Assembly: GCF_020424085.1 (NCBI RefSeq)
Contig: NZ_CP080203.1
Location: 1-64,000, forward strand
Source: Mycetocola spongiae
GTDB lineage: Bacteria > Actinomycetota > Actinomycetes > Actinomycetales > Microbacteriaceae
Reading direction: 5' to 3'
DNA: 64,000 nucleotides
Shown here: in pieces, positions 19,972 through 64,000 of the stretch
How the letters are laid out: each line of letters starts with the position of its first letter
Numbering within the stretch: position 1 is the first letter of the stretch
Translations under genes and position numbers: made by a program
Notes under the pieces: generated by a model
Database searches by the model: none
Seen by the model: the letters and a program-made list of their open reading frames with translations, nothing else
Told to the model about the DNA's origin: nothing

Positions 19972-20062
19972 GAACAAGCGGACAAAATAAGATCAGGCTG
20001 TACTCGGTTTAGCGGGCTGGGTCGCGGCGAGCCTGCCGTTGATAATCCGCATCTCGGATAAC

Positions 20063-20081
20063 CTGAACAGACTTTGTTCAG
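20063..20081. promoter_or_regulatory. Palindrome directly upstream of the AIPR gene
   Basis: CTGAACA and TGTTCAG, perfect 7-bp arms around a five-base centre, ending at the base where the GAGAGG ribosome-binding site starts. It may be an operator or an mRNA hairpin that limits translation. The GAAC and GTTC half-sites resemble a Gram-positive LexA box, but the spacing is seven rather than four, so it is not a standard SOS box. Confidence 0.5.
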
Positions 20082-20093
20082 AGAGGACCTTTA

Positions 20094-21872: not shown

Positions 21873-21958
21873 TTCCTTACTAACTCGGGCAGGTCACCCA
21901 GTGGACGCTCCAAAATAAACTCGGCAGCGCTAATGCTCATAACTTATAGAGACTTATC

Positions 21959-21995
21959 GGTTGGGCGATCAGAATCTACTTGAGATCGTCCAACC
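21959..21995. repeat. Inverted repeat near the right end of the cassette
   Basis: Arms at 21959-21970 and 21984-21995 pair over 12 bp with one G-T wobble, around a 13-base loop. There is no following T-run. It lies between the AIPR stop and the right direct repeat, so it could be a weak terminator, an origin-like hairpin or a recombinase-binding site. Confidence 0.5.
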
Positions 21996-22035
21996 CGGAC
22001 TTAGCTCGGATAAGACAGGTGGAGCGTTTCTGGGC

Positions 22036-26474: not shown

Positions 26475-27242
26475 ATGACCGACGCCCCGCGCACCCTCCT
26501 GCTTCCGCGCGAGGGATACCGCGGCCTGGACTCCCTGAGCCTCGCGCTGATCCGCCGGCCCGCGGACCTGCCGGGCCTGCTGGCCGCGTTCCGGCGGCTC
26601 GCCGCGGAGCATCCGGGAGGCCGCTGCTATCTCACCCTGGACGATGTGAACCAGTGCGCCTATACCGCCGGGCACGCCCGCGAAAAGTATGCGCTTGCTG
26701 CCGGGATCGACTATCCCGAGGAGGACGGCGCGGAGGCACTCGCACGCTTCGACGCCGCGATTTTTGCCGCCTCCGCGCGGGCGCTGCGCGATCCGGCCCG
26801 GGCCGTGGCCTGGGAGGATCTGCGCGCCGACCCGGGGGACGAGGAGGACATCGCGATCCTGCGCCGCCTGAACGATAACCCCGAGGTGCTGGTGGAGGAG
26901 GTGCACGTGGTCCAGCGTGTGCCCTCGGACGTGGATGAGGACCTGCTGGCCAGCCTGCCCAATGGCTATTTTGACGGCGACCGCACCCCGTTTGACTGCG
27001 CCGCGATTATTCGCCGGCTGGTCTCCCGGCACGGCTATGCGCTGCTCGGGATCGGGGCCTCCACCCTGGCCTTTCACCGCACCGGGGCCGCGCCGGCGGA
27101 TATCCCGAAACTCCTCGCCGATCTGCGGCACCTCTACGGAGCGCCCGATAGCGCCCACTGGGAGGGCCTGGCACGCCGGCTCGCCACCTCCGACCTGCTG
27201 ATCCTCGGCTATACCGAGAACGTCGCGGACCTCCTCGACTAG
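26475..27242 (+). CDS. Unrecognised soluble protein
   Basis: A 255-residue protein with no family I can name. Composition and codon use match the host core genes, and a -10 hexamer is placed correctly, so I consider it real. No signal peptide, membrane segment or known catalytic motif is seen. The sequence alternates predicted helices (PADLPGLLAAFRRLAAEH) and short strands, with repeated acidic clusters (EDLRADPGDEEDIAIL). It is divergent from the phosphatase gene and lies 91 bp upstream of smc. Confidence 0.7.
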   Translation: MTDAPRTLLLPREGYRGLDSLSLALIRRPADLPGLLAAFRRLAAEHPGGRCYLTLDDVNQCAYTAGHAREKYALAAGIDYPEEDGAEALARFDAAIFAASARALRDPARAVAWEDLRADPGDEEDIAILRRLNDNPEVLVEEVHVVQRVPSDVDEDLLASLPNGYFDGDRTPFDCAAIIRRLVSRHGYALLGIGASTLAFHRTGAAPADIPKLLADLRHLYGAPDSAHWEGLARRLATSDLLILGYTENVADLLD

Positions 27243-48941: not shown

Positions 48942-50066
48942 CTACTCGCGCAATTCGCGCGCCAGCGCCGCCACCACCGTGCGCAGGTCGCCGTCGTGGG
49001 CGGCCGCCACGGCGAGCTGGCGCCGATAGCTGCCGCCCCCCGCGATGATCCCGGCCACCCCCGCGAGTTCGGCCGCACAACCGAGCCGCTCGGCGGTGGG
49101 GGCCAGCTCCACCAGGAGCTCGGCGAGGTGTTCGGTCACGAGGCGCTCATCGCCCGCGGCATTCACCACGAGGATTGCGTCAAGCCCATAGCGCGCGGCC
49201 CGCCATTTATTTTCGCGAATAAACCAGGGCTGCAGCGTGGTGAGCTCCTCGCCCCGGTCCAGGCGCGCGGACATATATTCAACCAGGCAGTGAATGAGCG
49301 CTGCCACCGCCGCGAACTCCCGCGTGGTGCTCGCGGCATCACAGGAGCGCATCTCCACGGTGCCCCACTGCGGGCTGGGGCGAATATCCCAGCGCACCTC
49401 GGTATGGTCCTCGATGATCCCGGTATGGGTCATATCCGCCACATAGCGCTCAAACTCGGGCCACTGGGTGAACTGGGCCGGTGCCCCCGCCGTGGGGAGC
49501 TGCTGAAACATCAGGGAGCGATTGGAGGCATAGCCGGTATCCACGCCGCCCCAGAACGGGCTCGACGCACTCAGCGCCTGGAGATGGGGCGAAAACGTCA
49601 TCAGGCCATCGATCAGGGGCAGCGCCTTGGCCACATCCTCCACGCCGACATGCACATGCATGCCCCAGATCATCATGTTCCGCCCCCACCAGCGGGTGCG
49701 GTCGATCAGGCGGTGGTAGCGCTCCTTATCGGTCACCGGCTGGTCAAACCACTGCCCAAACGGGTGTGACCCGGCGGAGATCAGCTCGATGCCCAGCGGA
49801 TCGGTCACCGCGCGCACCTCCGCGAGTTGACCGCGCAGATCGGTGATCGCGGAGGGCACCGTATGGTGCACGGCGCTGACCAATTCCACGGTATTCAGCA
49901 GGAGTTCGCCGGTGATATGCGGGTGTTCCAGGCCCTCCGGGGTGCGCAGGGAGGCCAGGACCTCATCGGCCCGGGAGACCAGATCTCCGCTCTCCGGGTC
50001 CACGAGGGCGAGCTCCCACTCCAGCCCGATTGTGGATCGTTCGGAGTGCGCAAAATCGATTTTCAT
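48942..50066 (-). CDS. YbdK-like carboxylate-amine ligase (glutamate-cysteine ligase family 2)
   Basis: A 374-residue ATP-dependent ligase of the GCS2 family, which makes gamma-glutamyl-type bonds; the physiological substrate is uncertain. Family blocks are [18 protein letters not shown] at the N-terminus, [32 protein letters not shown], and [18 protein letters not shown]. It lies between ffh and rpsP, a position I recall for this family in related actinobacteria. Confidence 0.92.
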
Positions 50067-50175
50067 GGCCTGCTGAGTGTCCCTTCACCGCCGAGTGTCT
50101 TCCGCAATTCTGACACGCTTATAAACCCGATTACACGGATGCGACGATTTCTGACAGAATGGGTGATTGAGTCCG

Positions 50176-50204
50176 TGCACAACCGACCCTCTATCAGTTG
50201 TGCA
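50176..50204 (+). promoter_or_regulatory. Hairpin in the rpsP leader
   Basis: TGCACAAC and GTTGTGCA, perfect 8-bp arms around a 13-base loop, about 80 bp upstream of the rpsP start. There is no T-run. It may be a leader structure controlling the ribosomal-protein operon, or a DNA-binding site. Confidence 0.5.
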
Positions 50205-50285
50205 ATGGACCCCTCGAGCTTTCGCCGCGTGTGCACCCCACGCGCTCGGCAACCAGTTCACCACACTAAACATCACAGGAGAATT

Positions 50286-50708
50286 GTGGCTGTCAAGATT
50301 CGTCTCAAGCGCATGGGTAAGATCCGTGCACCGTACTATCGTGTCGTCGTTGCCGACTCGCGCACCAAGCGCGACGGTCGCGTGATCGAGGAGATCGGAA
50401 AGTACCACCCCACCGAGGAGCCCTCGTTCATCGAGATCAACTCCGACCGTGCCCAGTACTGGCTCTCCGTGGGCGCACAGCCCACCGAGCAGGTTGCTGC
50501 GCTCCTGAAGCTCACGGGCGACTGGGGCAAGTTCAAGGGTGATAAGGACGCCGTTTCGACCGTTAAGGTCAAGGAGCCCAAGGCTCCCTTCGTGATTGAC
50601 GCGAAGAAGAAGCCCGTTCTGAAGCCCAAGGTGGAGAAGGCTCCGGCCAAGGTTGAAGAGCCCGCCGCCGAGGCCGCTGAAGCAGCTACCGAAGAAGAAA
50701 CGGCGTAA
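50286..50708 (+). CDS. rpsP: 30S ribosomal protein S16
   Basis: Small-subunit structural protein. It begins [21 protein letters not shown] and continues [19 protein letters not shown], diagnostic of S16. The 140-residue length includes an alanine/glutamate-rich tail typical of actinobacteria. Start is GTG behind AGGAG. First gene of the rpsP-khpA-rimM-trmD operon. Confidence 0.98.
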
Positions 50709-50710
50709 TT

Positions 50711-50956
50711 TTGCTCTCTCCCGCTCTGGAACATCTCGTTAAAGGGATTGTCGACCACCCGGAAGACGTCCAGGTCGCGGCGAAGAGCACGACGCGCGGC
50801 GAGATCCTCGAGGTTCGTGTGAACCCCGAGGATCTCGGCCGCGTGATCGGCCGCTCGGGTCGCACCGCCAAGGCGCTGCGTACCCTGGTCAATTCATTGG
50901 CCGGCGGGGCTCGGGTCCGTGTTGACGTTGTCGACACCGACGCAACTGCCCGATGA
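50711..50956 (+). CDS. khpA: KH-domain RNA-binding protein KhpA
   Basis: An 81-residue KH-domain protein with LEVRVNPEDLGRVIGRSGRTAKALR containing the GxxG loop (GRSG). KhpA binds RNA, often together with KhpB, and affects ribosome or cell-division functions in other Gram-positives. Start is TTG two bases after the rpsP stop. Its TGA overlaps the rimM ATG. Confidence 0.95.
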   Translation: MLSPALEHLVKGIVDHPEDVQVAAKSTTRGEILEVRVNPEDLGRVIGRSGRTAKALRTLVNSLAGGARVRVDVVDTDATAR

Positions 50957-51621
50957 GCCCGGCAGAACAGCCCCGAAAAAATCAGCTGCGCGTCGGCCGG
51001 CTGACCAAGGCCCACGGGCTTAAGGGCGCACTCAAGCTTGAACTTTTCACCGATGACCCCGCGCACCGTTTTGTGCCCGGCGCGGTCTTCACCCTGCAAG
51101 TCCCGACCGGCTCCAAGTGGCACGGTAAAACCATCGAGCTTGATGAGCTGCGCTGGTATAACGGGCATGCGGTGGCGTTCTTTAACGGCGTGGATAACCG
51201 CGATGAGGCGGATACCCTGATTAAGGCGATCCTCTGGATCGACGCCGATGCCACCCCCGATAACGATGAGCCCGATGCCTGGTATGACCACCAGCTGATC
51301 GGCCTGCGCGTGCTGCGCGATGGTGCCGAGGTGGGTACGCTGCTGCGCGTGGAGCACATGCCCGCGCAGGATCTGCTGATCGTGCGCACCGCCGATGGCG
51401 AGGTGATGGTTCCGTTTGTTTCGGCCATCGTGCCCGAGGTAAACGTGGCCGAGGGCTTTGTGGTGGTCACCCCTCCCGCCGGCCTCTTTGAGGAGCTGCC
51501 GGATACGGTGGAGCCCACCCCGAAGAAGGAGGTCCTGGAGGCGCGCGCCGCCGAGGCCGCCGCCCGGGACGCCGGCGACGCGGATGATTCCGCGGAAGCA
51601 CCCGCCAACCCCACCGCATAG
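50953..51621 (+). CDS. rimM: Ribosome maturation factor RimM
   Basis: Assists assembly of the 30S head domain. The 222-residue protein opens with [25 protein letters not shown] and continues to the PRC-barrel segment [13 protein letters not shown], ending with [20 protein letters not shown]. The last 45 residues are acidic and alanine-rich. It overlaps khpA by four bases and is followed by trmD after ten. Confidence 0.96.
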
Positions 51622-51631
51622 GGAGTCCTCC

Positions 51632-52339
51632 ATGAGGATCGATATTATTTCCATTTTCCCCGAGTATTTTGACGTCCTTGACGTCTCTCTGCTGGGAAAG
51701 GCCCGGCAGTCGGGGCTGATCGATATGAACGTGCATAACCTGCGCGATTTCACGCATGATCGGCACCGTACCGTGGACGATACGCCCTATGGTGGCGGGG
51801 CCGGCATGGTTATGAAGCCCGAGCCCTGGGGCGAGGCGCTGGATTCCGTGCTGGGCTCCGAGCCGACCGCCGTGAGCGAGGACTCCCCGCTGGTGATCTT
51901 CCCGTCCCCTGCCGGGGACGTGTTTAACCAGGCGATGGCCCGCGAGCTGAGCCAGGAGAAATCGCTGGTCTTTGGCTGCGGCCGCTATGAGGGCATCGAC
52001 CAGCGGGTTTTTGATCACACCGCCACCCGCGCGCGCGTGCGCCTGGTGAGCCTGGGCGATTATGTGTTAAACGGCGGCGAGGTTGCGGTGCTCGCGATGA
52101 TCGAGGCCATCGGCCGCCTCATCCCGGGCATGGTGGGCAATCCCGATTCGCTCGTGGAGGAATCGCACGAGGATGGCCTCCTGGAATACCCGAGCTATAC
52201 CAAGCCGCAGACGTGGCGCGATCTAGAGGTCCCCGCGGTGCTGCGCAGCGGCAACCACGGTGCCGTGGACGCCTGGCGGCGCGAACAGCAGATCGAGCGC
52301 ACGCGCCGCGTGCGACCCGATCTGCTCGGCGAGGCCTAA
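51632..52339 (+). CDS. trmD: tRNA (guanine(37)-N(1))-methyltransferase
   Basis: Makes m1G37 in tRNAs, preventing frameshifts. The 235-residue SPOUT-fold protein has [28 protein letters not shown], the trefoil-knot segments [13 protein letters not shown] and [11 protein letters not shown], and [13 protein letters not shown]. The ATG at 51632 follows GGGAG at a suitable distance. Last gene of the operon. Confidence 0.98.
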
Positions 52340-52380
52340 CCCCGCGATCCGCCTCGTCCCGGTGGCGCGCCGGGCGCGCG

Positions 52381-53442
52381 TCAGCGGGAGCGCCGCCTCC
52401 GGGACTCCGCCCTCCACTGGGCATGCTGCCGGGCCAGAGCCTCGGCATCACCCCGGCGGTCCCGATACGCAATCTCGCGGTGGATCCGCTGCCAGCTGAT
52501 GAGCCGACGCCGCGAGATGTCCCCGGCCTCGACCGCGGAGAGGACCGCACAACCGGGCTCTACCGTGTGGGTGCAGTCCCCAAAGCGGCATTTTTTGGCG
52601 GCCTCGGTGATTTCGGCGAAGGTCTCGTCCACTCCCTCCTCGCTCGCGAGGAGATCAAGCGAACGGATTCCCGGCAGATCCAGGAGCATTCCGCCGTCCG
52701 TGAGCGGATAGAGCTGTCGGGAGGTGGTGGTGTGGCGGCCCTGCCCCGCCGCGCCCACCTCCCGCACCGGTTCCGCACGTCCCTCGAGCGCATTCAGCAG
52801 GGAGGTTTTGCCCGCCCCGCTGGCCCCCAGCATCGTTGTGGTGGTGCCCGGAGCCATGATCTCGCGGAGCCGGTTCAGCCCCAGCCCGGTGACCGCGCTG
52901 GTGAGAAGCACCTCCATTCCCGGTACGGTATCGGATACCGCGCGTTGCGTGGCCGCCGGATCGGCCACGGTATCCGCCTTGGTGAGCACGGTCAGCGGCT
53001 GGGCGCCGCTGTCCCAGGCGAGCACGGCGAGGCGTTCCAGGGCCCCGAGGCTCGGCTGGTGTTCCAGCGAGAGCACCAGCAGGATATGGTCGATATTTGC
53101 CGCGAGTATCTGCACCCCGGTTCCGCGCGGATCGGGCCGTGACAGGGTGGTGTGGCGCACCGCCAGCTCGAGGATACGCTCCTCGCCCGCCAGGACCCAG
53201 TCCCCGGTGATCGGCGTGGCCGCGAGCGTGGGGGAGAGGCCCAATACGTGATATTCGAGCCGGTCGTTCCGGGCCAGGAGCACATCGGCCCGCGCGCCGT
53301 GCATTGCCACGACCCGGCCGGGGTGGGCGCCGGAGAGGAGCGCGGCCGCATCCTCACGGCCGGTGCTATCCCGCGAGAGCCAGCGCAGTTCGGCCCGCTC
53401 GGGGAGGCCCAGCCGGCGCAGTAGTGCCATTGTCTGTGTCAT
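52381..53442 (-). CDS. rsgA: Ribosome small subunit-dependent GTPase RsgA
   Basis: Circularly permuted GTPase acting late in 30S maturation. The 353-residue protein has G4 in VLTKAD ahead of G1 (MLGASGAGKTSLLNAL), G3 in LLDLPGIR, and the zinc site CRFGDCTHTVEPGC, in the permuted order expected. The ATG at 53442 overlaps the stop of the upstream MFS gene, so the two are coupled; a second ATG four codons later is possible. Convergent with trmD. Confidence 0.93.
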   Translation of the reverse strand: MTQTMALLRRLGLPERAELRWLSRDSTGREDAAALLSGAHPGRVVAMHGARADVLLARNDRLEYHVLGLSPTLAATPITGDWVLAGEERILELAVRHTTLSRPDPRGTGVQILAANIDHILLVLSLEHQPSLGALERLAVLAWDSGAQPLTVLTKADTVADPAATQRAVSDTVPGMEVLLTSAVTGLGLNRLREIMAPGTTTTMLGASGAGKTSLLNALEGRAEPVREVGAAGQGRHTTTSRQLYPLTDGGMLLDLPGIRSLDLLASEEGVDETFAEITEAAKKCRFGDCTHTVEPGCAVLSAVEAGDISRRRLISWQRIHREIAYRDRRGDAEALARQHAQWRAESRRRRSR

Positions 53443-54707
53443 GAGTTTTCTCCAAGAGGGGTATCCCGGGAGCGGTGGATGAACGTGCCGGCGATCAGGC
53501 CGCCGATCAGGATGAGGCCCGCGAGGGCGCCAAGAAACCAGGTCATACCCAGCCACCGGGCCAGCGGAAGGCTGATCACCAGGCCCACGGGAACCATCAC
53601 CGATCTCAGCGTCTGCTCCACCGCGCCCACCCGGGAGAGTGCGGAGTTGGGGATGGTCCGTTGCAGATAGGTATCAAAGAGAACCTCGGCGATGGCCACC
53701 GCCGCGGCGGTGAGCGCAAAGGCCCCTGTCAGCGCGATGATATTCGGCACCAGGCCAAAGCAGAGCAGCTGAAGGGGTGGGCAGAGGGCGAGTATCCAGA
53801 GAATATAGAGCGGGGGGCGGCCGACCCTGACCCATCCGGCGAGGAAGGAACCGAGGAGTCCCCCGGCGGCGAGTGCGGTGGTGAGGGCGGCCCAGGAGGC
53901 CATATTTCCGAATATATCCCGGGCCATCAGCGGTCCAAGCACGCTGGTGGCCGCGGCCCCCAGCTGCACCGGGCACCACAGCAGGATGAGGGCCAGCAGC
54001 GCCGGATAGCGGGTGAGGAGGCGCAGGCCGTTTCGGAAACCGGAATCCACCGCGGTCTCCTCGGCCCCACTCGCGGCCTCCGCGACGGAGGGGGGTGTCC
54101 CCGTGCCCCGGCGGCGGAGACGATATAACCACGCGAGGCAGAGGAGGGACACCAAAAATGTGGCGCAGTCGAAGAATAATGCGGTTTCCACCCCGCCGGC
54201 CACGGTTAATAATGTGGCGAGGGTGGGGCCGAGCAGCATGCCCGTATTAAAGGCGATATCGATCGCGGAATTTGCTCTTTGGAGCGATTCCGGGGGCAAT
54301 AACTCGGGGAGCAGGCCGATGCTCGCCGGCAGATAAAAGGCCGTTCCCGCCCCGTAGAGTGCCGCGGAGATGCCAAGATGCCACAGCGTTGCGGTACCCG
54401 TGATAAACCCCAGGATCGGGATGAGCTGCGCGAGCAGGCGCACAACATCCGCGACCCACATCACCGCGACCCGGTCCACACGATCGGCAACCGTGCCTCC
54501 CGCCGCCACACAGAGCATCCGTGCGATCCAGAGCGAGAGCAAAACTATGGGCATGCCCCAGCCGGAATCGGATACGGCCAGGGCCGCAAAGGCAAAGGTC
54601 ACCGGGATAATGCCATCGCCGATATACGAAAACGCCTGGCCCAAATAATAGGTGCGAAAGGCCCCGACCCGAAAGGGGTGGGGCGCCGGGGTGAGCCCTG
54701 GCCTCAT
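53439..54707 (-). CDS. MFS transporter
   Basis: A 422-residue major-facilitator protein with about 12 hydrophobic segments and the motif-A-like GTVADRVDRVAVMWVAD between segments 2 and 3. The pattern (FYLPASIGLLPELLPPESLQRANS) is that of the enterobactin-exporter/MefA-like group, so export of a drug or small metabolite is likely. The ATG at 54707 is the best start by homology (FRVGAFRTYYLGQAFSYIGDG); the open frame extends 42 codons further without support. Coupled to rsgA by overlap. Confidence 0.88.
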   Translation of the reverse strand: MRPGLTPAPHPFRVGAFRTYYLGQAFSYIGDGIIPVTFAFAALAVSDSGWGMPIVLLSLWIARMLCVAAGGTVADRVDRVAVMWVADVVRLLAQLIPILGFITGTATLWHLGISAALYGAGTAFYLPASIGLLPELLPPESLQRANSAIDIAFNTGMLLGPTLATLLTVAGGVETALFFDCATFLVSLLCLAWLYRLRRRGTGTPPSVAEAASGAEETAVDSGFRNGLRLLTRYPALLALILLWCPVQLGAAATSVLGPLMARDIFGNMASWAALTTALAAGGLLGSFLAGWVRVGRPPLYILWILALCPPLQLLCFGLVPNIIALTGAFALTAAAVAIAEVLFDTYLQRTIPNSALSRVGAVEQTLRSVMVPVGLVISLPLARWLGMTWFLGALAGLILIGGLIAGTFIHRSRDTPLGENS

Positions 54708-54917
54708 CGGTGGGCACCGCCGGGGAGGAAAGCATGGTGGGACGGGAGAGCGCTCAGCGTGGGTCCTTTGGTGGTAAAACGGGGCCCACCGAATACTCTT
54801 CGCCGAGCCATCGTCCGCCGGACGACCTGCCACACGCTAGTCCGCAAAACTGATATTTAGTGCAATATTCGGGCCCGTGGCATCCGCCCTGCCCCGGGCC
54901 CAACTACGTGGATATGC

Positions 54918-55886
54918 CTAGTTTCGCGCGCCCCCGGGTCCGGGGGTCACCGAATACGGAGGTGCGCCCTCGCGCGACCAGGTGACGAGGGTGCGCGCGG
55001 GTTCGCAGAGATAATGCTCCAGCGAGCCCTCCGAGGCGAAGGCAGTATGGGGCGTGAGCAGTGCGCGCGGATGCGAGCGCAGCGGATGGGCCGCCGCGGG
55101 CGGTTCCTGCGCCGTGACATCCAGCGCGGCGCGCAGGCCCCCGGAATCCAGCGCCGCCAGCAGCGCGGATTCCTCCACGAGTTCCCCGCGCGAGACGTTT
55201 ATCAGCAGCGCCCCCGGGCGCAGTGCGGCGAGCTCGCGCGCGCCCAGCAGCCCCCGGGTCTGCTCGGTCAGCGGCAAATGCAGCGAGAGAATATCGGATT
55301 CCGCGAGCAGCCGGGAGGGCTCCACCCCGTCCACCCCCGCGGGATAGGACTCCAGATAGGGGTCGTGGGCGATCACCCGGCCCAGAAGCGGCCCGGCTAT
55401 CCGGGCCAGGCGCCGCGCGATACGCCCGCAGCCATAGAGCCCCAGCGTGAGCGTGCTCAGCCGGCGCGGCAGCGGGCCGGGCAGCTGCGCGGTCCATCCG
55501 CCGGCCGCAGTGGTGGCCAGAGCCGCCGGCAGGTGCCGCTCGGCGGCCAGCAGCAGCGTGAGCGCATGCGCCGCGACCTCCTCGGTCGCGGCATCCGGCA
55601 GGGGCGAGAGCCAGATTCCGCGCCGGGTCAGCTCTGCGCTATCCACCATGTCAAAACCCGCACTCGTGGTGGTCACGATGCGCAGATTCGGCAGCCGGTC
55701 CAGGACCGCGGCATCCACCCGCGCATAGCCCACGATCAGCCCCACGGCTTCGCGCGCCGCCTCGGGCAGGCCCGAACCGGGAAGGTCGATCGAGAGCGTC
55801 GCGAAACCCGCGTCCTCCAGGATGCGCCGCGCGGGCTCCTGATCCAGATCGGTGCGATCGGTAAAAATAATCAGCGGGCGGGTCAT
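54918..55886 (-). CDS. D-2-hydroxyacid dehydrogenase
   Basis: A 322-residue NAD-dependent oxidoreductase of the phosphoglycerate dehydrogenase-like family. The nucleotide-binding motif is LGLYGCGRIARRLARIAG; NVSRGELVEE carries the conserved arginine region and LTPHTAFASE the catalytic histidine. The ATG at 55886 overlaps the stop of the ThDP-enzyme gene (ATGA). It would interconvert a 2-oxoacid and a D-2-hydroxyacid, and it is the last gene of the ureohydrolase cluster. The substrate is presumably the same 2-oxoacid used by the ThDP enzyme. Confidence 0.88.
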   Translation of the reverse strand: MTRPLIIFTDRTDLDQEPARRILEDAGFATLSIDLPGSGLPEAAREAVGLIVGYARVDAAVLDRLPNLRIVTTTSAGFDMVDSAELTRRGIWLSPLPDAATEEVAAHALTLLLAAERHLPAALATTAAGGWTAQLPGPLPRRLSTLTLGLYGCGRIARRLARIAGPLLGRVIAHDPYLESYPAGVDGVEPSRLLAESDILSLHLPLTEQTRGLLGARELAALRPGALLINVSRGELVEESALLAALDSGGLRAALDVTAQEPPAAAHPLRSHPRALLTPHTAFASEGSLEHYLCEPARTLVTWSREGAPPYSVTPGPGGARN

Positions 55887-57556
55887 GCCCGTGCCACCCG
55901 GTCCAGGTGGGTGGGGGCAAAGAGGCCCAGCACGGTGGGTACCACCACCACGCTGGGGCCCGGCGTGGCCAGCGCACGCGCCACGGCCCCCGCCGCCTCC
56001 CCGGGCGTGGCCAGTTCCGCGGGAATCCCGAAGGACCGCGCCAGCGCCACATAATCGGGCCGCGCCAGTTCGGTCGCGGTGGCCTCCCCAAAGGCCCCCA
56101 CCATATATTCGCGCAGGATTCCATACCCGCCGTCGTCCACGATCAGCCACGTCACGTCCAGGTGATGCTGCGCGAGTGTGGCCAGCTCCGCGATGCCATA
56201 AAGCGCACCGCCATCCCCGGAGACGGCGAGCACGGGCGAATTGGTGCCCGCGAGGCGATGGCCCCAGGCGGCGCCGAGTGCCGCGGGCAGGCCATAGCCG
56301 AGCCCGCCCGCGCCCTGCGCGCTGGCAAAGCGTCCGCCGCGCGGATCCCAGGCCGACCAGGCCCAATAGGCGAGGATCGTCATATCCCAGAACGTATCGG
56401 TGTGATCGGGGACCGCGGCGCGCAGCGCGTCCAGCAGCGCGCGTTCGGCCTCAAGATCCTGGCCGTCCAGCCGCGAAATCACGGTGGAGAGGAGCGCGTC
56501 GATCCGCTCCCGCCCGTGCGCGAGCCGTTCCGCCAGGCCCGTGATCTCCCGGCCTGCCAGCTCCGCGGCCAGTGCCCGCAGCGCGCGATCGGCATCGGCA
56601 TGTACCCCGAGCCCGTCGTGGTTGGAACATACCTTGCCCAGGTCCGCCTCGATCTGAATCAGGCTGCCGCGCGGCGCAAACGTGTGATAGTTGCTGGAGG
56701 TTTCGCCGAGCCCGGAGCCCACCACCAGCAGCACATCCGCGGCCTCAAGAAACTCGGTCACGGCGATATCTTCGAGCCAGGAGCGCGCCGAGAGCGGATG
56801 CTCCCAGGGCAGCGCGTTTTTACCACCGAATGTGGTGACCACGGGGGCCTGGAGCGTCTCGGCGAGGATGCGCAGGGCGTCCTGCCCTCCCGAGCGCACC
56901 ACGCCACCGCCGGCGAGGATCACCGGATTCCGGGCCGCGGCCAGCAGATCGGCGGCCGCGCCGATCACCTCGGGACGCGGTTCCAGCGCCGGTATTTGGG
57001 CGCGCAGCGGGGCCACCACCGGTACCCGTCCCGCGGCCGCCTGCAGCAGGATATCCTGCGGAATCTCCACCAGCGTGGGGCCCGCGGGGGCGGCGAGTGA
57101 GGCCTCCCAGGCGGCGATCAGGGCCGAGGGAATCTGGGCCATGGTGCGCACCGTGAATACCGATTTCACGATTCCCCGGAATGAGGCTGACTGATCGGGC
57201 AGCTCGTGTAAATATCCGTGTCGCCCGCCGCCGAGGCCGGCCACGGGCACCTGCGCGCTGATCGCAAGCACGGGCACCGAGGAGGCAGCGGCCTCCTGCA
57301 GGGCGGCCAGCGAGGTGAGCGCCCCGGGCCCGGTGGAGAGCAGCAGCGGGGCCACGGAACCACTCACCCGGGCCAGGCCATCCGCGGCGAAACCCGCATT
57401 ATTTTCCACGCGCGCGCTGAGATATTCCAGCGGGGAGCGGCGCAGGGCATCAAAGAGCCCCAGCGCGTGCTGCCCGGGCAGCCCCACCACGCCGCGCGCG
57501 CCCAGCGCCCGCAGCGTTTCCAGCACCACATCGCCGCCGATGCGTGCCGCTCTCAT
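55883..57556 (-). CDS. Thiamine-diphosphate-dependent enzyme (acetolactate synthase-like)
   Basis: A 557-residue ThDP enzyme with the three-domain layout of acetolactate synthases and 2-oxoacid decarboxylases. The cofactor-activating glutamate lies in [19 protein letters not shown]. The metal/diphosphate motif starts [17 protein letters not shown] and ends [12 protein letters not shown], where the usual Asn-Asn pair is Asp-Asp. It overlaps both neighbours by four bases. A decarboxylase of a guanidino 2-oxoacid (as AruI in the arginine transaminase route) is one hypothesis, given the adjacent ureohydrolase. Confidence 0.88.
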
Positions 57557-58554
57557 CGGTTCTTCTCCGCGATCAGCGAGACCAGGTCATAGGCAATATG
57601 GGACGCGGCCACGGCGGTGATATCGGCGTGATCATAGGCCGGGGCCACCTCCACCACATCGGCCCCCACAATATTCAGGCCCGCGAGCCCGCGTAGGATT
57701 TCCAGCACCTCGCGGCTGGTCAGCCCACCCGCCTCGGGGGTGCCGGTGCCCGGCGCATGCGCGGGGTCAAGCACGTCGATATCCAGGGAAATATAGAGGG
57801 GGCGGGCGCCCACGCGCTCGCGCAGCCGGGCGATGATCTCGTCCACCCCGAGCCGGAAGACATCCGAGGAGGTGAGGATGCCAAAGCCAAAGCGGCGATC
57901 ATCCTCTAGATCGCGGTGCCCGTAGAGCGGGCCGCGGGTACCCACGTGACACAGCGCCTCGGTATCCACGATGCCCTCCTCCACGGCCCGCCGGAACGGG
58001 GTGCCGTGGGTATATTCCGCGCCAAAATAGGTATCCCAGGTGTCCAGGTGGGCGTCGAAGTGCAGGAGCGCTACCGGGCCGTGCACCGCGGCCACCGAGC
58101 GCAGCAGCGGCAGCGCGAGGGTGTGATCACCGCCGAGGGTCACGAGGGAGGTGCCTCCGCGCTGTAGCGCGGTGGCGGTATCTTGCAAAACCTCCAGCGC
58201 CTCCGGAATATTAAACGGGTTCAGGGCGATATCGCCGCCGTCCACCACCTGCAGCCGGGCAAAGGGGGAGATATCCAGTGCGGGGTTATAGGGGCGCAGC
58301 AGCCGGCTCGCGGAACGAATATGTTCGGGCCCAAAACGGGCACCCGAGCGGAACGAGACCCCGGCGTCCCAGGGGGCGCCGATCACGGCGATATCGGCGT
58401 GCTCCACCTCGTCGATGCGGGGCAGCAGGGCAAACGTGGCGGGGCCGCTATAGCGCGGCACCAGCGCGGAGTTTACGGGGCCACTATTGCCGTTCTCAAC
58501 GACGCGCTCGGCGTTGGCGCTCAGGGCGGAGGGAAGGTGTGGGAAGGCAGACAT
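57553..58554 (-). CDS. Ureohydrolase (agmatinase/guanidinobutyrase family)
   Basis: A 333-residue binuclear-metal enzyme releasing urea from a guanidino compound. All three signatures are present: [31 protein letters not shown], and [28 protein letters not shown] supplies the intervening histidine. The final motif fits agmatinase, guanidinobutyrase and guanidinopropionase equally. Its neighbours (symporter, ThDP enzyme, PucR regulator) favour a catabolic guanidino acid over polyamine synthesis. Overlaps the ThDP gene by four bases. Confidence 0.93.
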
Positions 58555-58583
58555 GATGGATGTCCTTTCGACGTGGGGGAAAA

Positions 58584-60080
58584 TTAGTGGTTATGCGGAT
58601 CGAAGGCGATCGTGGCCGTCTCGGGCCGCGAAACGTTAATATCCTCGGTATCGCTCGCGGAGAGGCGGTGGGTCCACTCGGACATGATCGCCTCCTCGGT
58701 GGGGCGCGTGCACAGGCTCACCACCACATAGGTGACCAGGCCGGTTCCGAGGCCCACATAGATCGGCTGATTGGCCAGAATATCGGTGGCAAACATCGTG
58801 ATGATCACGGCCACGGTGCCCACGAGGATGCTCGCCCAGGCGCCGGCGCGCGTGCCGCGCTTCCAGACCAGGCCGCCCAGGATCGAGACAAAGAGCCCGC
58901 CGACGAGGATGTTATAGGCGATCGTGAGTGCCGCGACCACGCTGCTGACCGAGGAGGCGATCAGGATCGTGACGATGCCCAGCCCGAGGATCGCCACGCG
59001 ATAGACAGTGAGCGAGCCGCCCTGCGCGAAGCTCGGGGTTCCGGGGCGGAAGATCGCGCGCAACCGCGGGAAGATATCGCTGGTGAGTACCGTGGCGGAT
59101 GCGATCAGCGCGCCGCTCGCGGTGGACATCATCGCGGCGAGGGCCGCGGCGAGCACCAGCCCGCGCACACCCGGCGGCAGCGAGTCCTGCACAATCGTGG
59201 CGAAGGCCTCATCGGGCACCTTCAGATCGGGGTAGATCACGCGGGTGGCCATCCCGATCAGCGCACCGGCCACGGCATAGATCAGGCAGTAGGCGCCGGA
59301 GGCGAGGCCGCCGATGCGCGCTACCTTCGGGGTGCGGGCGGTGAATACGCGCTGCCAGATATCCTGCCCGATCAGCAGGCCCAGGGTATACACCACGATA
59401 TAGGTGATGATCGTGGCCCCGCCGATCGACCACGGGGAGAAGAAGGACTCGCCCAGGCGCTCGCGCATTCCCGAGAAGCCTCCCGCATGTACCAGCGAGA
59501 TCGGCAGCAGCAGGAACAGGATGCCGATGGTCTTGATCACAAACTGCACCACATCGGTCAGGGTGATGGACCACATTCCGCCCATGACCGAATAGGCCAC
59601 CACCACGGTGCCGCCGATCGCGATTCCGGCGATATTGGGGATGCCAAAAAGCACGTGGAAGATCGTGGCATAGGCCAGCGTGGAGGTCACCGTGAGCATG
59701 AGCGTATAGAGGAACATCACGATGCCCGAGATCAGGCCGGAGTTGCCGCCATAGCGCAGGTCCAGCATCTCGGTCACGGTATAGACCTTAAGCTTCACGA
59801 TCCGCTTGGCAAAAAAGGCGCTGAGGACCAGGATGCCCAGGCCGATGGCCACCACCAGCCAGGCGCCGGAGAGGCCATAGCTATAGCCCAGGCCGATGCC
59901 GCCCACGGTGGAGGCCCCGCCCAGGACGATGGCCGAGAGGGCACCCGAGTACATAAAGGTGCCGAGGCGGCGGCCGGCCACCAGATAGTCGCTCTTGGTT
60001 TTGGAGCGCCGCAGGCCCCAGTATCCGACGCCGAGTATGGCGATCATATAAACGGCAATAACGATATAGTCCAGGACCAC
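58584..60080 (-). CDS. Sodium:solute symporter
   Basis: A 498-residue SSS-family transporter with about 13 hydrophobic segments and the landmarks [40 protein letters not shown], and [26 protein letters not shown] near the Na+ site. Start is GTG behind GGGGGAC. First gene of the cluster transcribed away from the PucR gene; the ureohydrolase follows after 29 bp. Its likely job is to bring in the compound degraded by the cluster. Confidence 0.94.
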
Positions 60081-60184
60081 GATGTCCCCCAGGGTAATAG
60101 GTAGTGAGCTGAGTTTGGTTGTGCCAGGCTATCCACGCCCGCGGCCCCTCCGCTTCGATATTATGTCCCGGTAGGATAATTTTT

Positions 60185-60199
60185 GGGATAAATCATCCC
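60185..60199. repeat. Small inverted repeat in the PucR-symporter intergenic region
   Basis: GGGAT and ATCCC around five bases, 25 bp upstream of the PucR start and next to TAGGAT, a possible -10 (60172-60177). A candidate binding site for the regulator, but short. Confidence 0.35.
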
Positions 60200-60223
60200 G
60201 ACTGGACGCGGGGGGATGGGCGC

Positions 60224-61822
60224 ATGTCGCATAAGAGTGCGGGGTATGTGGGAGAGACGGCGCGGCCCACGGGGGTGGCCCTCGGGCGCCTGCTGGCGGC
60301 GGATGAGCTGGGGCTCGGGGTGCTTGCGGGGCCCGCCGATCCGGGCGCGATCATCCTGACGCACTGCGCCGTGATCGAGCTGGAGCATCCCGAAACCTAT
60401 CTCACCGGGCACGAGCTGCTCCTGATCACGGGGCTGGGGCTGTCCGCCGAGCCCGGGCGCCTGGACGCCTATGTGGATGCACTATGCGCGGCCGGAATCT
60501 CCGCCCTCGGATTTGGGGTCGAGCCCGTTTATCCCGAGGTGCCCGAGGCCCTGATCGCGGCATGTGAGCGGGCCGGGCTGGTGCTCCTGCGGGTGCCGCG
60601 CGAGGTGCCGTTTGTGCAGATCACGGCGCAGTTCGCCCGCGAGCTGGAGAGCGTGCGGGTGCGCGGGCTGCAGTTTGTTTCCACGCTCGCCCGGCGGCTC
60701 ACCCGCGCGGTCCTGCAACCGCATCCCGACCGCGCGCTGATCGAGGCCCTCGCCGAGCAGAGCGGCGCGCGCGTGCTGCTGCGCTCGGGCAGCGATACCT
60801 CCACCGCGGGGGTGCTGGCGCGGGCGCTGCCGCCCGCGGAGGAGGAGGCGCTGCTCTCCGGGGCGGTGGCCGAGCTGGCGCGCAGCGAGCGCGGCGAGGA
60901 CCTGTTTACGGCCCCGGCCGGGGGAGCGCTGGAGGCAGTGGCACGGCGCATCGATCGCGACGGCGGGCGCGCCTCGCGCGGCACCGTGCTGCTGCTGATT
61001 AAAGAACATATTGGCAGCGATGACCGCACGGGTTTTGCCCTGGCCGCGGATCTCTTGCAGGCAGCGCTGGGGCTGCCGCGCTCGCAGACCATCGCGCTGG
61101 ATCAGCTGATGATGCTGCTGCTGGTGGATGGTCCTCCGGCGGATCGCGCGGGCATCGAACGCTGGGGTCGGCTCGTGGCGACCTCGCTCGGGCGGGCGGG
61201 GACCCGCGCTGTGCATACGGTGGTTGCGGTCTCGGCCGCGGGGGAGCCCGCCCAGGCCACCGATCTGATCTGGTGGCGGCGGGCACTGGATACCCCGTTT
61301 GTGGATCACCGCGCGGGCGCGCTGCGGGCGCTGGTCGCGGCGGTCCCCGGCGAGCACGTGCTTGCCGATCTGCACGCCCGCGGCTGGCTGGCCTGCGTGA
61401 GTACCGCATATCCGGTGGATGAGCTGGCCACCGCGATCCGCGAGGCAGAGCTGCTTTTGCCCCGCGCCCGCGAGGCCGGACGGCCGCTGGTGGCCGGCAG
61501 CGAGCTGGAAACGCTGGGGGCGCTGATTCCCGCGCCGCTTTCGGATCTCTTTGCGCGCACGGTCCTGGAGGCGCTGCTGGCCGATCCGGCGGCCACGGAA
61601 CTCGTGGATACGCTGTATACCTGGCTGTTGCATAACGGCTCTTGGGATGCCACGGCGCGCGCTCTGGGTGTGCATCGTAATACCGTGCGCCGCCTGGTGC
61701 CGCGCGCCGGTGCGCTCCTGGATCGCGACCTGGACGATGCCCATGTCCGCGCCGATCTGATCTTTGCGTTGCGGCATCATATTCGTGACGGTGGGGCCCG
61801 GGCGCGCACCCGCGGGGCCTAG
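60224..61822 (+). CDS. PucR-family transcriptional regulator
   Basis: A 532-residue regulator with the PucR layout: an N-terminal ligand-sensing domain (about 15-150, GRLLAADELGLGVLAG and HELLLITGLGL), a GGDEF-like middle region, and a C-terminal helix-turn-helix, LLHNGSWDATARALGVHRNTVRRL. PucR proteins often control nitrogen-compound catabolism such as purine or amine use. It is divergent from the symporter-ureohydrolase operon and probably activates it. The ATG at 60224 follows GGGGGA. Its stop shares CTAG with the convergent permease gene. Confidence 0.93.
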   Translation: MSHKSAGYVGETARPTGVALGRLLAADELGLGVLAGPADPGAIILTHCAVIELEHPETYLTGHELLLITGLGLSAEPGRLDAYVDALCAAGISALGFGVEPVYPEVPEALIAACERAGLVLLRVPREVPFVQITAQFARELESVRVRGLQFVSTLARRLTRAVLQPHPDRALIEALAEQSGARVLLRSGSDTSTAGVLARALPPAEEEALLSGAVAELARSERGEDLFTAPAGGALEAVARRIDRDGGRASRGTVLLLIKEHIGSDDRTGFALAADLLQAALGLPRSQTIALDQLMMLLLVDGPPADRAGIERWGRLVATSLGRAGTRAVHTVVAVSAAGEPAQATDLIWWRRALDTPFVDHRAGALRALVAAVPGEHVLADLHARGWLACVSTAYPVDELATAIREAELLLPRAREAGRPLVAGSELETLGALIPAPLSDLFARTVLEALLADPAATELVDTLYTWLLHNGSWDATARALGVHRNTVRRLVPRAGALLDRDLDDAHVRADLIFALRHHIRDGGARARTRGA

Positions 61823-63165
61823 CCGCCGCGCGCCGCCCGCGTGGATTCGCGGGCATCGGGCTCCGGGAGAAATACCACGGCCGAGCACAGCACAAGATGG
61901 ATAAGCGCCACGAGGAGCACCGGCCGGGGATCAAATACCCACGCCCCGATGGGTCCCCGCGCCGCCAGGCCACCCCAGAGCACGAGGGTGGCCGCGATCG
62001 AGCAGATGAGTGCGAGTGCCGTCGCGGCGAGGACATACCCCAGGGATTCCTGGAGCCGTGCCGCCATGATCTGGCCGCGGCCCCAGCCGAGGCGGCGTAG
62101 GGTCTGGGCGTCGCGCGCCGCGCGGCCACCGCGCAGATATACGCCGAGCGCGGCGGCGGCCAGGCCCAGCGCGATGGGCACCCCAAACATCACCAGCATG
62201 AGGGGACCCTCCGCGGGCTGGGTGGGCGTGCCGTGAGAGAGTGATCGAATGATTCCGGTGACACCGGTCACGCTCCCCGCGATGGTTCCCGCGACCATTC
62301 CGGTGGCCAGAACCCCCGGGGTTGCGCGCACCCGGGCGCGGGCCGCGCGCACCGCGATATAGCTCACCGTGGAATGGCCCTGGGGGATCGGACCCGCGGT
62401 GATCCGCAGCAGCGCGGGATAGAGCCACGGGCCGAGGCAGTCCAGCAGAAAAACCAGCACCAGCCCGCTAAGGAGCGCGTTCATGCTCAGGTTGCTCTCG
62501 GATGCGGTGGACATGGTTGCGCCGATGCCGATCAGCAGCAGCAGGGCGAGCAGGGTTTTTAGCCACCGGGTCCGGGAGCGCGCGGGCGACCGAGTCGCGG
62601 CGGATTCGGGGGTGCCGCGGCCGCTCCGGAGCCGGGTGCCCAGGCCCGCGGTTCCCATCAGCACACACAGTTCCAGCAGGAGCAGCGTGGCGGCCACGGC
62701 CGCGGGCCGGGGGGCAAGCGCAAGCGCGGCGACCTCGGGGGTGAGCGTGCGCAGGGGCGCGCTGAGCAGCGGGGTTCCGGGGACGGACAGCGCCCAGCCC
62801 GCGGCGGTGCCCAGCGCGATGGACAGGGCAATGCTGCCCCGGATGATGAGCGCGATCTGCCCGGAGAGTAGGCCCGCCTGCCGCCAGCGGAGGATACTCT
62901 CGGCCAGGAGTACCACGATGGCGCGAATGGTGGAGCGCACGGCATGCAGGGCCACGCCCACCAGGATCACCAGCGGAAGCATGGTAAAGCCCCCGATGCC
63001 GCGAACCGCCCGCTCGTCGAGCAGATTATTGGCGCGCGCCTGGAGGGCATCACCCAGCATGGTCAAAAACGCGATGAGGCCGACCGCGATGAGGGTCGTC
63101 AGGATAATCAGGCCCGCCCAGACGCCCAGGGTCCGCAAAAACTCGCGATGCCAGAGCCGGAACAT
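61819..63165 (-). CDS. FtsX-like ABC transporter permease
   Basis: A 448-residue membrane protein with about ten hydrophobic segments in the layout of macrolide- or lipoprotein-export-type permeases that carry an FtsX domain near each end. The ATG at 63165 gives an N-terminus MFRLWHREFLRTLGVW, cytoplasmic and basic before the first segment. It starts four bases after the ATPase stop. The LRRLGWGRGQI and RRAARDAQ segments are typical cytoplasmic loops. Export substrate unknown. Confidence 0.82.
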   Translation of the reverse strand: MFRLWHREFLRTLGVWAGLIILTTLIAVGLIAFLTMLGDALQARANNLLDERAVRGIGGFTMLPLVILVGVALHAVRSTIRAIVVLLAESILRWRQAGLLSGQIALIIRGSIALSIALGTAAGWALSVPGTPLLSAPLRTLTPEVAALALAPRPAAVAATLLLLELCVLMGTAGLGTRLRSGRGTPESAATRSPARSRTRWLKTLLALLLLIGIGATMSTASESNLSMNALLSGLVLVFLLDCLGPWLYPALLRITAGPIPQGHSTVSYIAVRAARARVRATPGVLATGMVAGTIAGSVTGVTGIIRSLSHGTPTQPAEGPLMLVMFGVPIALGLAAAALGVYLRGGRAARDAQTLRRLGWGRGQIMAARLQESLGYVLAATALALICSIAATLVLWGGLAARGPIGAWVFDPRPVLLVALIHLVLCSAVVFLPEPDARESTRAARGG

Positions 63166-63169
63166 GCGC

Positions 63170-63889
63170 CTAGCTGAGTTCCCCGAAGGCGGCCAGCACG
63201 GCGGCGTGGCTCGGAGCGTGGAGTTCACCCAGGATCTGCCCGTCGCGGAGCAGATAAACCCGGTCGCAGCGGGCCGCCGCACCCAGATCGTGTGTGACCA
63301 GCACGGTGGCGGTGCCGGAATCGCCGAGGTCGGTCAGGAGATTCATGACGGCGGAGCCATTATGGGTATCGAGCGCGCTGGTGGGTTCATCGGCCAGGAT
63401 GATCTGGGGGTGACACGCGATGGCCCGCGCAATTGCGACACGCTGTTGCTCGCCGCCGGAGAGGCGATCCGGGAGTGCCTCGGCGAGCGGCGCGAGGCCC
63501 AGCGCGTGTAGGAGGCCGATGACCAGCGCGGCATCGGGATGGTGCCGGATGCGCTGCGCAAACTCGATATTTTCCCGGGCGGTGAGCGAGGAGACAAGCC
63601 GGTAGTCCTGGGTGATGAGGCCGAGGGTATCGCGCAGAAATCTTTCCTGCCCGCGCGATCCGGCGCGATCCAGGAGGCGATCTTGGCAGCGCAGCGTGCC
63701 CTCATCTGGGCTCAGCACACCCGAGAGGCATGCGAGCAGCGTGGATTTCCCCGATCCCGAGGGCCCGATCAGGGCCACCCGTTCCCCGGGCCTAATCCGC
63801 ATATCGATTCCGCGCAATACCGGAACCTGCCGGCCGCGCGAGCCGAAGGGAAATGATTTTTTCAGGCCGGTGGCGACCAGCGCATCCAT
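63170..63889 (-). CDS. ABC transporter ATP-binding protein (LolD/MacB type)
   Basis: A 239-residue ATPase. Walker A is LIGPSGSGKSTLLACL, signature SGGEQQRVAIARAIA, Walker B IILADEPTSALD, and the switch histidine is in LVTHDLGAA. This is the type that pairs with FtsX-like permeases, and the permease gene follows on the same strand. The 111 bases between its start and the window edge hold no gene that I can see. Confidence 0.93.
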   Translation of the reverse strand: MDALVATGLKKSFPFGSRGRQVPVLRGIDMRIRPGERVALIGPSGSGKSTLLACLSGVLSPDEGTLRCQDRLLDRAGSRGQERFLRDTLGLITQDYRLVSSLTARENIEFAQRIRHHPDAALVIGLLHALGLAPLAEALPDRLSGGEQQRVAIARAIACHPQIILADEPTSALDTHNGSAVMNLLTDLGDSGTATVLVTHDLGAAARCDRVYLLRDGQILGELHAPSHAAVLAAFGELS

Positions 63890-64000
63890 GGGTTAGGTCC
63901 TTCCGCGTAGATGGCGTTGGGGCCCGGTGCCGGGTGGGCCCCGCGGCACCCGATAGGGGAGAGCGGACCCGTAACCGCCGATTTTGTGCCAGCGTACGGT

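Follow-up and report, generated by a model that had tools for sequence, protein, structure and literature searches.

Organization of the locus

The window, a stretch of 64,000 nucleotides from Mycetocola spongiae, carries a minus-strand operon of four genes, divergent from a plus-strand gene for a PucR-type regulator. The operon opens with a Na+/solute symporter (SSF; 58584-60080, 498 aa, GTG start, PF00474), presumably the importer of the substrate. It continues with a guanidinobutyrase-like ureohydrolase (UH; 57553-58554, 333 aa, PF00491), an AruI/PRK08266-like ThDP enzyme presumed to be a 2-oxo acid decarboxylase (55883-57556, 557 aa, three TPP_enzyme domains) and a D-2-hydroxyacid dehydrogenase (DH; 54918-55886, 322 aa, PF02826 and PF00389). 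The regulator combines PucR and HTH_30 domains (PF07905, 79 bits against a gathering score of 33.5; PF13556, 57 against 27) and occupies 60224-61822, encoding 532 aa if translation begins with the ATG at 60224, or 567 aa with a TTG farther upstream, at 60119. The Pfam domains of all five proteins exceed their gathering scores, and open reading frames, translations and domains agree on the gene content and PucR divergence given in a preliminary description. The four-base overlaps it reported for the last three genes are confirmed in the raw sequence, where one ATGA joins the UH stop to the ThDP start (57553-57556, minus strand) and another the ThDP stop to the DH start (55883-55886, minus strand). 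Symporter and UH genes are separated by 29 bases.

The divergent position of the PucR gene suggests that its product may control the operon. The gap between regulator and symporter contains a candidate operator, the dyad GGGAT-N5-ATCCC (60185-60199). Two further perfect copies lie inside open reading frames, at 12047 and 26703, while eight related gaps hold no perfect copy and three of them one with a single mismatch; little weight is therefore placed on it. No guanidine riboswitch or other known RNA reached the gathering score within 50000-64000.

The ureohydrolase

Among PDB entries, UH best matches the guanidinobutyrase GbuA (3nio, 277 bits), followed by guanidinopropionase (GpuA, 261), proclavaminate amidinohydrolase (PAH, 255) and agmatinases (at most 224); 7esr, labelled 'probable agmatinase 2' and presumably a guanidine hydrolase, reaches 157 bits. 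The residues H144, D167, H169, D171, D258 and D260, which we take to be the binuclear metal ligands of ureohydrolases, are kept in 102/102 aligned rows, P0003 being among the rows and one genome being counted twice (L103 repeats L014). R87 aligns with R72 of GbuA and is Arg in all 101 rows having a letter there. According to PMC9772407, R72 caps the neighbouring active site on its carboxylate side.

UH also passes two NCBIfam agmatinase cut-offs (PRK02190, 316 against 302 bits; TIGR01230, 216 against 174), as would be expected of an agmatinase in a polyamine operon. We consider this reading highly improbable. The solved agmatinases score under GbuA, GpuA and PAH, and UH keeps the capping Arg of GbuA, whereas PMC8125230 assigns the amino group of the substrate in the E. 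coli agmatinase to Trp68 of the neighbouring subunit, at a position that may correspond. Human AGMAT, named an agmatinase, turned out to be a guanidino acid hydrolase (PMC9772407), and we infer that the NCBIfam agmatinase models also take in such hydrolases. The preliminary description had named action on agmatine only as the outcome that would count against it; R87 speaks against such an enzyme.

Chain length is less clear-cut. The position of GbuA M161 and GpuA Y157, which presumably sets the preference for three or four carbons, is Y176 in UH, and the GpuA-type Tyr, not Met, is found in 102/102 rows. Although GbuA scores best, this residue would count against a four-carbon reading. It favours an alternative in which a ready-made guanidino acid, 3-guanidinopropionate or 4-guanidinobutyrate, is imported and cleaved directly by UH, the ThDP enzyme and DH handling a separate 2-oxo or 2-hydroxy acid under the same regulator. 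The gpu cluster of Pseudomonas aeruginosa, which pairs a transporter with GpuA, points the same way. We judge it unlikely, since of 80 loci, chosen as the best among at least 573 and mostly from Streptomyces, 79 have UH in one stretch with the ThDP gene, and the two genes overlap here. Two further observations in relatives, described below, also argue against it: the replacement of UH by other enzymes beside the same ThDP clade, and a GabT gene near a UH-ThDP pair.

The ThDP enzyme

The ThDP enzyme scores 302 bits on the AruI model PRK07524 (5-guanidino-2-oxopentanoate decarboxylase), below its cut-off of 500, and higher on the unnamed model PRK08266 (334 bits, cut-off 571). The catalytic Glu51 and the Asp of the GDG motif are present in 72/72 aligned rows; at the end of this motif, Asp475 replaces the usual Asn. 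Relatives at E<=1e-40 occur in 3 of 72,556 plasmid records.

Many acetolactate synthase models match the protein in part, and AHAS I is its top hit in the PDB (176 bits), as would befit an acetolactate synthase or another carboligase. The odds of this are very low: all the models listed fall far under their cut-offs, the best being the large subunit model TIGR00118 at 227 bits against 538, and the 'FDDR' stretch of AHAS has an Arg, presumably functional there, that faces a Thr in the alignment. A plain acetolactate synthase, which the preliminary description had set against its own reading, thus appears not to be encoded here.

Almost no weight is given to a purine or ureide route, in which PucR would act with a glyoxylate carboligase-like ThDP enzyme, a glyoxylate/hydroxypyruvate reductase-like DH and the allantoate amidohydrolase-like M20 enzyme of relatives. 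The PucR domain and the likeness of DH to glyoxylate reductases fit such a route, and the M20 enzymes of L098, L101, L191, L195 and L196 pass just over one allantoate amidohydrolase subfamily cut-off (434-440 against 424 bits). However, glyoxylate carboligase is absent from the 25 models listed of the 51 for the ThDP enzyme (P0002), carboligases are not known to carry a Glu corresponding to E51, and the KauB-type aldehyde dehydrogenase, GabT neighbours and DDAH-like enzyme found in relatives do not fit.

The dehydrogenase

In DH, R233, E261 and H280, which we take to be the Arg-Glu-His triad of D-2-hydroxyacid dehydrogenases, are invariant across six aligned rows, as is the Rossmann D175. This triad and both Pfam domains place DH in the superfamily; it matches no named subfamily (PGDH, glyoxylate reductase, D-lactate dehydrogenase) among the 21 NCBIfam models listed, with a best score of 157 bits against a cut-off of 454. 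The predicted structure (mean pLDDT 80.7) matches the general D-2-hydroxyacid dehydrogenase fold and so points to no particular substrate.

DH could instead be a dehydrogenase of D-arginine (imino acid) linked to NAD(P), converting D-arginine into 2-ketoarginine with the remaining steps unchanged. The acyclic imino acid reductase Bsp5 with D-Arg (6p2i) shares the fold and comes at Foldseek rank 24, and, DH apart, the cluster encodes nothing that is known to produce 2-ketoarginine. We regard this as distinctly unlikely: DH and 6p2i are only 24% identical, many hydroxyacid dehydrogenases rank above 6p2i, the structure is missing from the 50 rows listed in a second fold comparison, and the hydroxyacid triad of DH is intact.

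The preliminary description had proposed the dehydrogenase as a new element of such a route. Its linkage to the ThDP gene bears this out in part: among 398 genomes of the family, where the best five DH and best three ThDP candidates per genome were scored, every one of the 19 strong DH matches has a ThDP gene within 10 kb, on a profile (A1) built from DHs adjoining ThDP genes and counting 6 of the 19 as seeds. On the other side, DH is not a fixed part of the ThDP clusters: of the 25 in the family, 8 lack it, and the two most similar clusters, those of G017 and G547 from the same genus, are among these eight. A class-wide draw of 394 genomes yielded DH (E<=1e-90) in 7 and the ThDP enzyme in 47. 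In two genomes of one group (f26/g117), probably Streptomyces, a DH homologue lies next to a gene for a class II aldolase, in a stretch that lacks a ThDP gene.

Gene context in relatives

The order of a PucR gene divergent from symporter, UH and ThDP genes recurs in many related loci, and the arrangement is therefore more than chance. Genes in these loci were called by a simple custom script, which missed low-GC genes. The gene-order, UH-alignment, 80-locus and tree comparisons do not include the short loci L001-L013, L104-L132 lie outside the analysis, and L103 was dropped from the 80-locus counts and the tree and kept in the gene-order and UH comparisons. The tree covers 16 of the 80 loci, 10 of these drawn at random, and the ThDP loci L190-L198 were chosen through DH matches. 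Across 279 genomes UH tracks the ThDP enzyme, 18 ThDP genomes falling among the 77 with UH (Fisher 1e-8 to 1.5e-6 by the number of ThDP genomes in the set, ignoring relatedness).

Neighbouring genes indicate the chemistry. A KauB-type aminobutyraldehyde dehydrogenase passes its cut-off of 615 bits in six ThDP clusters (L065, 629; L077, 651; L143, 701; L147, 651; L148, 647; L149, 646); in five of the six, UH lies in the same stretch. L138, the sole ThDP cluster with a GABA transaminase (GabT, 606 against 507 bits, near UH-ThDP), also holds two SSADH-type aldehyde dehydrogenases, both under their cut-offs, an L-amino acid oxidase/monooxygenase (3we0, 795 bits) and a carbon-nitrogen hydrolase. 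In G033, G497 and G599, a DDAH-like gene and a carbamoylase gene (in G033, TIGR01879, 287 against 204 bits) adjoin ThDP and DH. These three genomes have no UH at E<=1e-30, and UH is present in the other nine of the twelve tested; the DDAH-like enzyme and carbamoylase stand in for UH in this one genus.

A proposed route

We propose, with a probability of about 0.58, that the operon degrades a guanidino 2-oxo acid and, here, also its 2-hydroxy form, most likely 2-ketoarginine (5-guanidino-2-oxopentanoate) and argininic acid. The symporter would import the guanidino compound, and DH would oxidize an argininic acid-like D-2-hydroxy acid with NAD+ to 2-ketoarginine, which the ThDP enzyme would decarboxylate to 4-guanidinobutanal. 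This aldehyde would be oxidized to 4-guanidinobutyrate by a KauB-type aldehyde dehydrogenase whose gene lies elsewhere, and UH would split the product into GABA and urea. GABA would pass to succinate through GabT and an SSADH-type enzyme, and urea may be excreted, since no urease alpha subunit was found in the genome. The 2-oxo acid core of the route is probable; oxidation of a guanidino 2-hydroxy acid by DH is a more tentative part, somewhat less than an even chance.

Candidates for the later steps lie together at 1.78 Mb: the KauB-type enzyme (NF010000, 644 against 615 bits), GabT (TIGR00700, 611 against 507) and, beside them, an SSADH-type gene (544 bits, cut-off 646). They adjoin a putrescine oxidase gene and have their own separate role, which counts against the 2-ketoarginine route. 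So do three other findings: no gene for an aminotransferase, an amino acid oxidase or an aldehyde dehydrogenase was seen in the window's cluster; only 6 of 14 ThDP+DH genomes yielded a KauB-like gene at the chosen threshold; and the replacement of UH is seen in a single genus.

A guanidino 2-oxo or 2-hydroxy acid as substrate, as first suggested in the preliminary description, is well supported by gene context: the KauB-type and GabT neighbours, the exchange of UH for the DDAH-like enzyme and carbamoylase, and the carboxylate-facing Arg of UH all agree with it, and the score of the ThDP enzyme below the AruI cut-off does not. The exchange links the two modules to a single chemical step and predicts GABA as the end product of each. 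Less likely than not is a generalization to a mandelate-type route, in which this DH clade would turn D-argininic acid or an analogue into 2-ketoarginine and so supply a ThDP decarboxylase dedicated to it. Removal of the guanidino group would then fall to UH or to the unrelated DDAH-like hydrolase with an N-carbamoyl amidohydrolase.

Given how widespread the UH-ThDP pair is among Actinobacteria, and given that the UH of the window passes agmatinase models, a whole catabolic route may hide behind the agmatinase name. Among the matches listed in the literature on 2-ketoarginine, guanidinobutyrase, argininic acid and DH, no description of such a cluster or of argininic acid catabolism appeared. 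If DH oxidizes argininic acid, it would provide a biological sink for a compound with no catabolic route among those matches.

Comparison with known systems

The closest parallel is the arginine transaminase pathway of P. aeruginosa, composed of AruH, AruI, KauB and GbuA. The pathway via 2-ketoarginine is treated in PMC2242806. The M. spongiae genome resembles this pathway in its AruI-like ThDP enzyme, its guanidinobutyrase-like UH and its KauB-type and GabT genes. It differs in a ThDP enzyme below the AruI cut-off, in a cluster without an aminotransferase, and in the presence of PucR, symporter and DH; the last may add a first reaction missing from the known version. UH is like GbuA (3nio) and GpuA (3nip) in its metal ligands, its carboxylate-side Arg and its best PDB matches, and unlike GbuA in the Tyr at the chain-length position.

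Within the same family, clusters of an AruI-like ThDP enzyme (TPP') with DH, such as L203, also pair the ThDP gene with a neighbouring DH of this type, DH being present in 19/19 by choice, as these loci were selected via DH matches or TPP' neighbours. UH occurs in 6 of the 19, and some have an ABC importer and Amidohydro_3. Unlike the window, TPP' of L203 scores 427 bits on the AruI model, the usual Asn is kept in 20/20 TPP' sequences and the symporter is absent from all 19 loci.

In the mandelate pathway, mandelate dehydrogenase, the ThDP enzyme benzoylformate decarboxylase and benzaldehyde dehydrogenase act in turn. The route proposed here would follow the same order of chemistry, from 2-hydroxy acid to 2-oxo acid, aldehyde and acid, with a guanidino side chain and with different dehydrogenase and ThDP families.

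Organization of the gene cluster

Open reading frames and their translations place all five genes of the cluster where the preliminary description had put them. The minus strand carries the genes for a D-2-hydroxyacid dehydrogenase (54918-55886), a ThDP enzyme (55883-57556), a ureohydrolase (57553-58554) and a Na+/solute symporter (58584-60080), and the plus strand that for a divergent PucR regulator (60224-61822); every Pfam domain of the five passes its gathering score. The four-base overlaps claimed in the same description are borne out by the raw sequence, which reads ATGA at both downstream junctions. Further downstream on the strand of the dehydrogenase, after a gap of at least 84 bases, comes a gene for an H+ antiporter-type MFS transporter (53439-54833; 148 bits, cut-off 320). 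Elsewhere in the window, the GC content is 0.515 at 20001-22000, against 0.599-0.752 in the remaining 2 kb steps. Perfect GGGAT-N5-ATCCC dyads number three, against 0.13 expected from shuffling: one is in the gap between PucR and the symporter (60185-60199), and the others are at 12047-12061 and 26703-26717, each of these two within an open reading frame.

The ThDP enzyme and its companions

The ThDP enzyme scores 334 bits on the unnamed model PRK08266 (cut-off 571) and 302 bits on the AruI model, under its cut-off of 500; on the acetolactate synthase model it reaches 227 bits, against a cut-off of 538. Glu51 is invariant in 72/72 aligned rows. The GDG-x-N motif ends in Asp475 (codon 475 of 55883-57556) in all 52 rows of the window's ThDP family and in the usual Asn in all 20 rows of TPP', a sister set of AruI-like enzymes found beside dehydrogenases, of which L203, the one member scored, reaches 427 bits on the AruI model. 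Clusters of TPP' and dehydrogenase genes also adjoin a gene for a protein of about 520 residues (L203:11864-13435, L151:11431-12999; homologues in L200, L202, L206 and L228), for which no Pfam model matched the L203 and L151 copies, and no NCBIfam model the L203 copy, at the thresholds used.

Among the matches listed, the named organisms whose enzymes come closest to the ThDP enzyme are Mycetocola saprophilus and M. lacteus (79-80%). In the best 80 named loci of at least 573, the ureohydrolase shares the stretch with the ThDP gene in 79, the sole exception (L040) beginning at a contig edge, and the symporter does so in 60. A further 88 neighbourhoods, counting at least one genome twice, were drawn with at most six genes per side: 79 of them include the ureohydrolase, 66 the symporter and 60 PucR. 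The ThDP enzyme is found in 47 of 394 genomes of the class at E<=1e-100, and as an ortholog of at least 450 bits in 25 of 398 genomes of the family. By genome, 18 carriers of the ThDP enzyme fall within the 77 carriers of the ureohydrolase among 279 (Fisher p = 1e-8 if the set held 21 ThDP genomes, or 1.5e-6 if it held all 25, relatedness being uncorrected). One genome, G003, holds two ureohydrolase copies of equal score and identity on separate contigs (C1:2204462-2205448, C2:1055677-1056663).

Probable ureohydrolase substrate and downstream chemistry

In an alignment of 102 rows including the window's own protein, the metal ligands of the ureohydrolase are invariant, and Tyr176 occupies the position of GbuA Met161 and GpuA Tyr157 in all 102. 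Lee et al. (2011) reportedly found that the Met or Tyr at this position sets a 3- versus 4-carbon preference. Arg87 stands at the position of GbuA Arg72 in 101/101 rows with a letter there; according to the AGMAT paper (PMC9772407), Arg72 of the adjacent subunit is able to contact the carboxylate of guanidinobutyrate. Because this arginine is present, the metal ligands are kept and GbuA is the top match among solved structures, the substrate is likely a guanidino acid, whose chain may have three or four carbons.

Aldehyde dehydrogenases that exceed the cut-off for aminobutyraldehyde dehydrogenase occur in six ThDP clusters (L065, L077, L143, L147, L148 and L149), five of which, all except L143, also hold the ureohydrolase in the stretch; a different aldehyde dehydrogenase, under every listed cut-off, is found in L099. 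Cluster L138 carries GabT over its cut-off and two SSADH-type genes under theirs; it also encodes a carbon-nitrogen hydrolase and a flavoenzyme of the L-amino acid oxidase/monooxygenase kind. If acting on arginine, this flavoenzyme could supply 2-ketoarginine to the ThDP enzyme and an amide to the hydrolase. At 1.78 Mb, the window's genome encodes an aminobutyraldehyde dehydrogenase (644, cut-off 615), GabT (611, cut-off 507) and an SSADH-type protein below its cut-off (544, cut-off 646), in a group adjoining putrescine oxidase. The urease alpha model had no match in this genome.

A possible alternative guanidino module

Twelve genomes without a ureohydrolase in the fetched stretch were searched for one at E<=1e-30. 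Nine possess it, at 61-83% (in G635 at the stretch edge, separated from the ThDP gene by 6 kb), and it was absent at this threshold from exactly three, G033, G497 and G599. In these three the ThDP-dehydrogenase pair is accompanied by two enzymes, one DDAH-like and the other an M20 enzyme of the carbamoylase family; all belong to one genus, and the replacement therefore represents a single lineage. The DDAH-like enzymes of the related clusters L101 and L098 are 64% identical. That of L101 matches the DDAH structure 3rhy with 73 bits, and the columns for the catalytic Glu, His and Cys align; the NCBIfam dimethylargininase cut-offs are not reached (81 against 340, 75 against 450). Both modules are present in G073, G574 and G741, of a single genus. 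On the simplest reading, the two convert one guanidino acid to one amine.

The dehydrogenase and its linkage to ThDP genes

Five homologues beside or near ThDP genes share 45-57% identity with the dehydrogenase, and the triad is invariant. Across the 398 family genomes, 19 dehydrogenase matches, 6 of them seeds of the profile, reach 400 bits or more, and every one has a ThDP match no farther than 10 kb away: an ortholog of the window's enzyme for 17 and a TPP' gene for 2. The proportion is 26/32 at 290-400 bits, where L203 and L204 add two pairs missed by the ThDP search listing, and 1/5 below 290 bits.

The dehydrogenase accompanies 17 of the 25 ThDP orthologs of the family; G017, G547, G020, G595, G722, G028, G063 and G027 are without it. 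On a quick tree, it occurs in 16/20 rows of the window's ThDP clade (SH-aLRT 100), which was partly fetched via dehydrogenase hits, and in 0/32 other rows of that ThDP family. The two Mycetocola rows adjoin the window (support 89) and have no dehydrogenase, which suggests loss.

Outside the family, G380 has the dehydrogenase adjoining a ThDP gene. Within the class draw of 394 genomes, no more than 7 carry the dehydrogenase at E<=1e-90. In two of them (group f26/g117, probably Streptomyces) it lies near a class II aldolase gene (L217:7894-8685, L218:9299-10141), pointing to another use for such dehydrogenases; in one, G313, the ThDP enzyme is on a different contig. In L219 and L220 the dehydrogenase is grouped with an aldehyde dehydrogenase and a ThDP enzyme that is more remote from the window's; by eye, the surrounding genes resemble those for acyl-CoA enzymes. 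Since it occurs in such other settings, the dehydrogenase-ThDP pair seems to be a reusable module, not confined to guanidino compounds.

Less probably, the dehydrogenase may instead act on D-arginine: it shares the fold of Bsp5, an imino acid reductase solved with D-Arg, but only distantly, at 24% identity. PMC11876095 describes Bsp5 solely as an acyclic imino acid reductase.

Comparison with known routes

The core probably serves guanidino 2-oxo acid catabolism, in a form that is widespread among Actinobacteria and, going by the open-access literature searched, seemingly undescribed.

By the curated AruI cut-off, the cluster is not a member of the arginine transaminase route. Mandelate breakdown proceeds from a 2-hydroxy acid to a 2-oxo acid, an aldehyde and an acid, and the steps predicted for the cluster follow the same order. 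The guanidino chemistry of the comparison comes from the known route leading from 2-ketoarginine to 4-guanidinobutyrate and GABA, as set out in PMC2242806. By analogy, the cluster would work like a fusion of mandelate breakdown with the 2-ketoarginine route.
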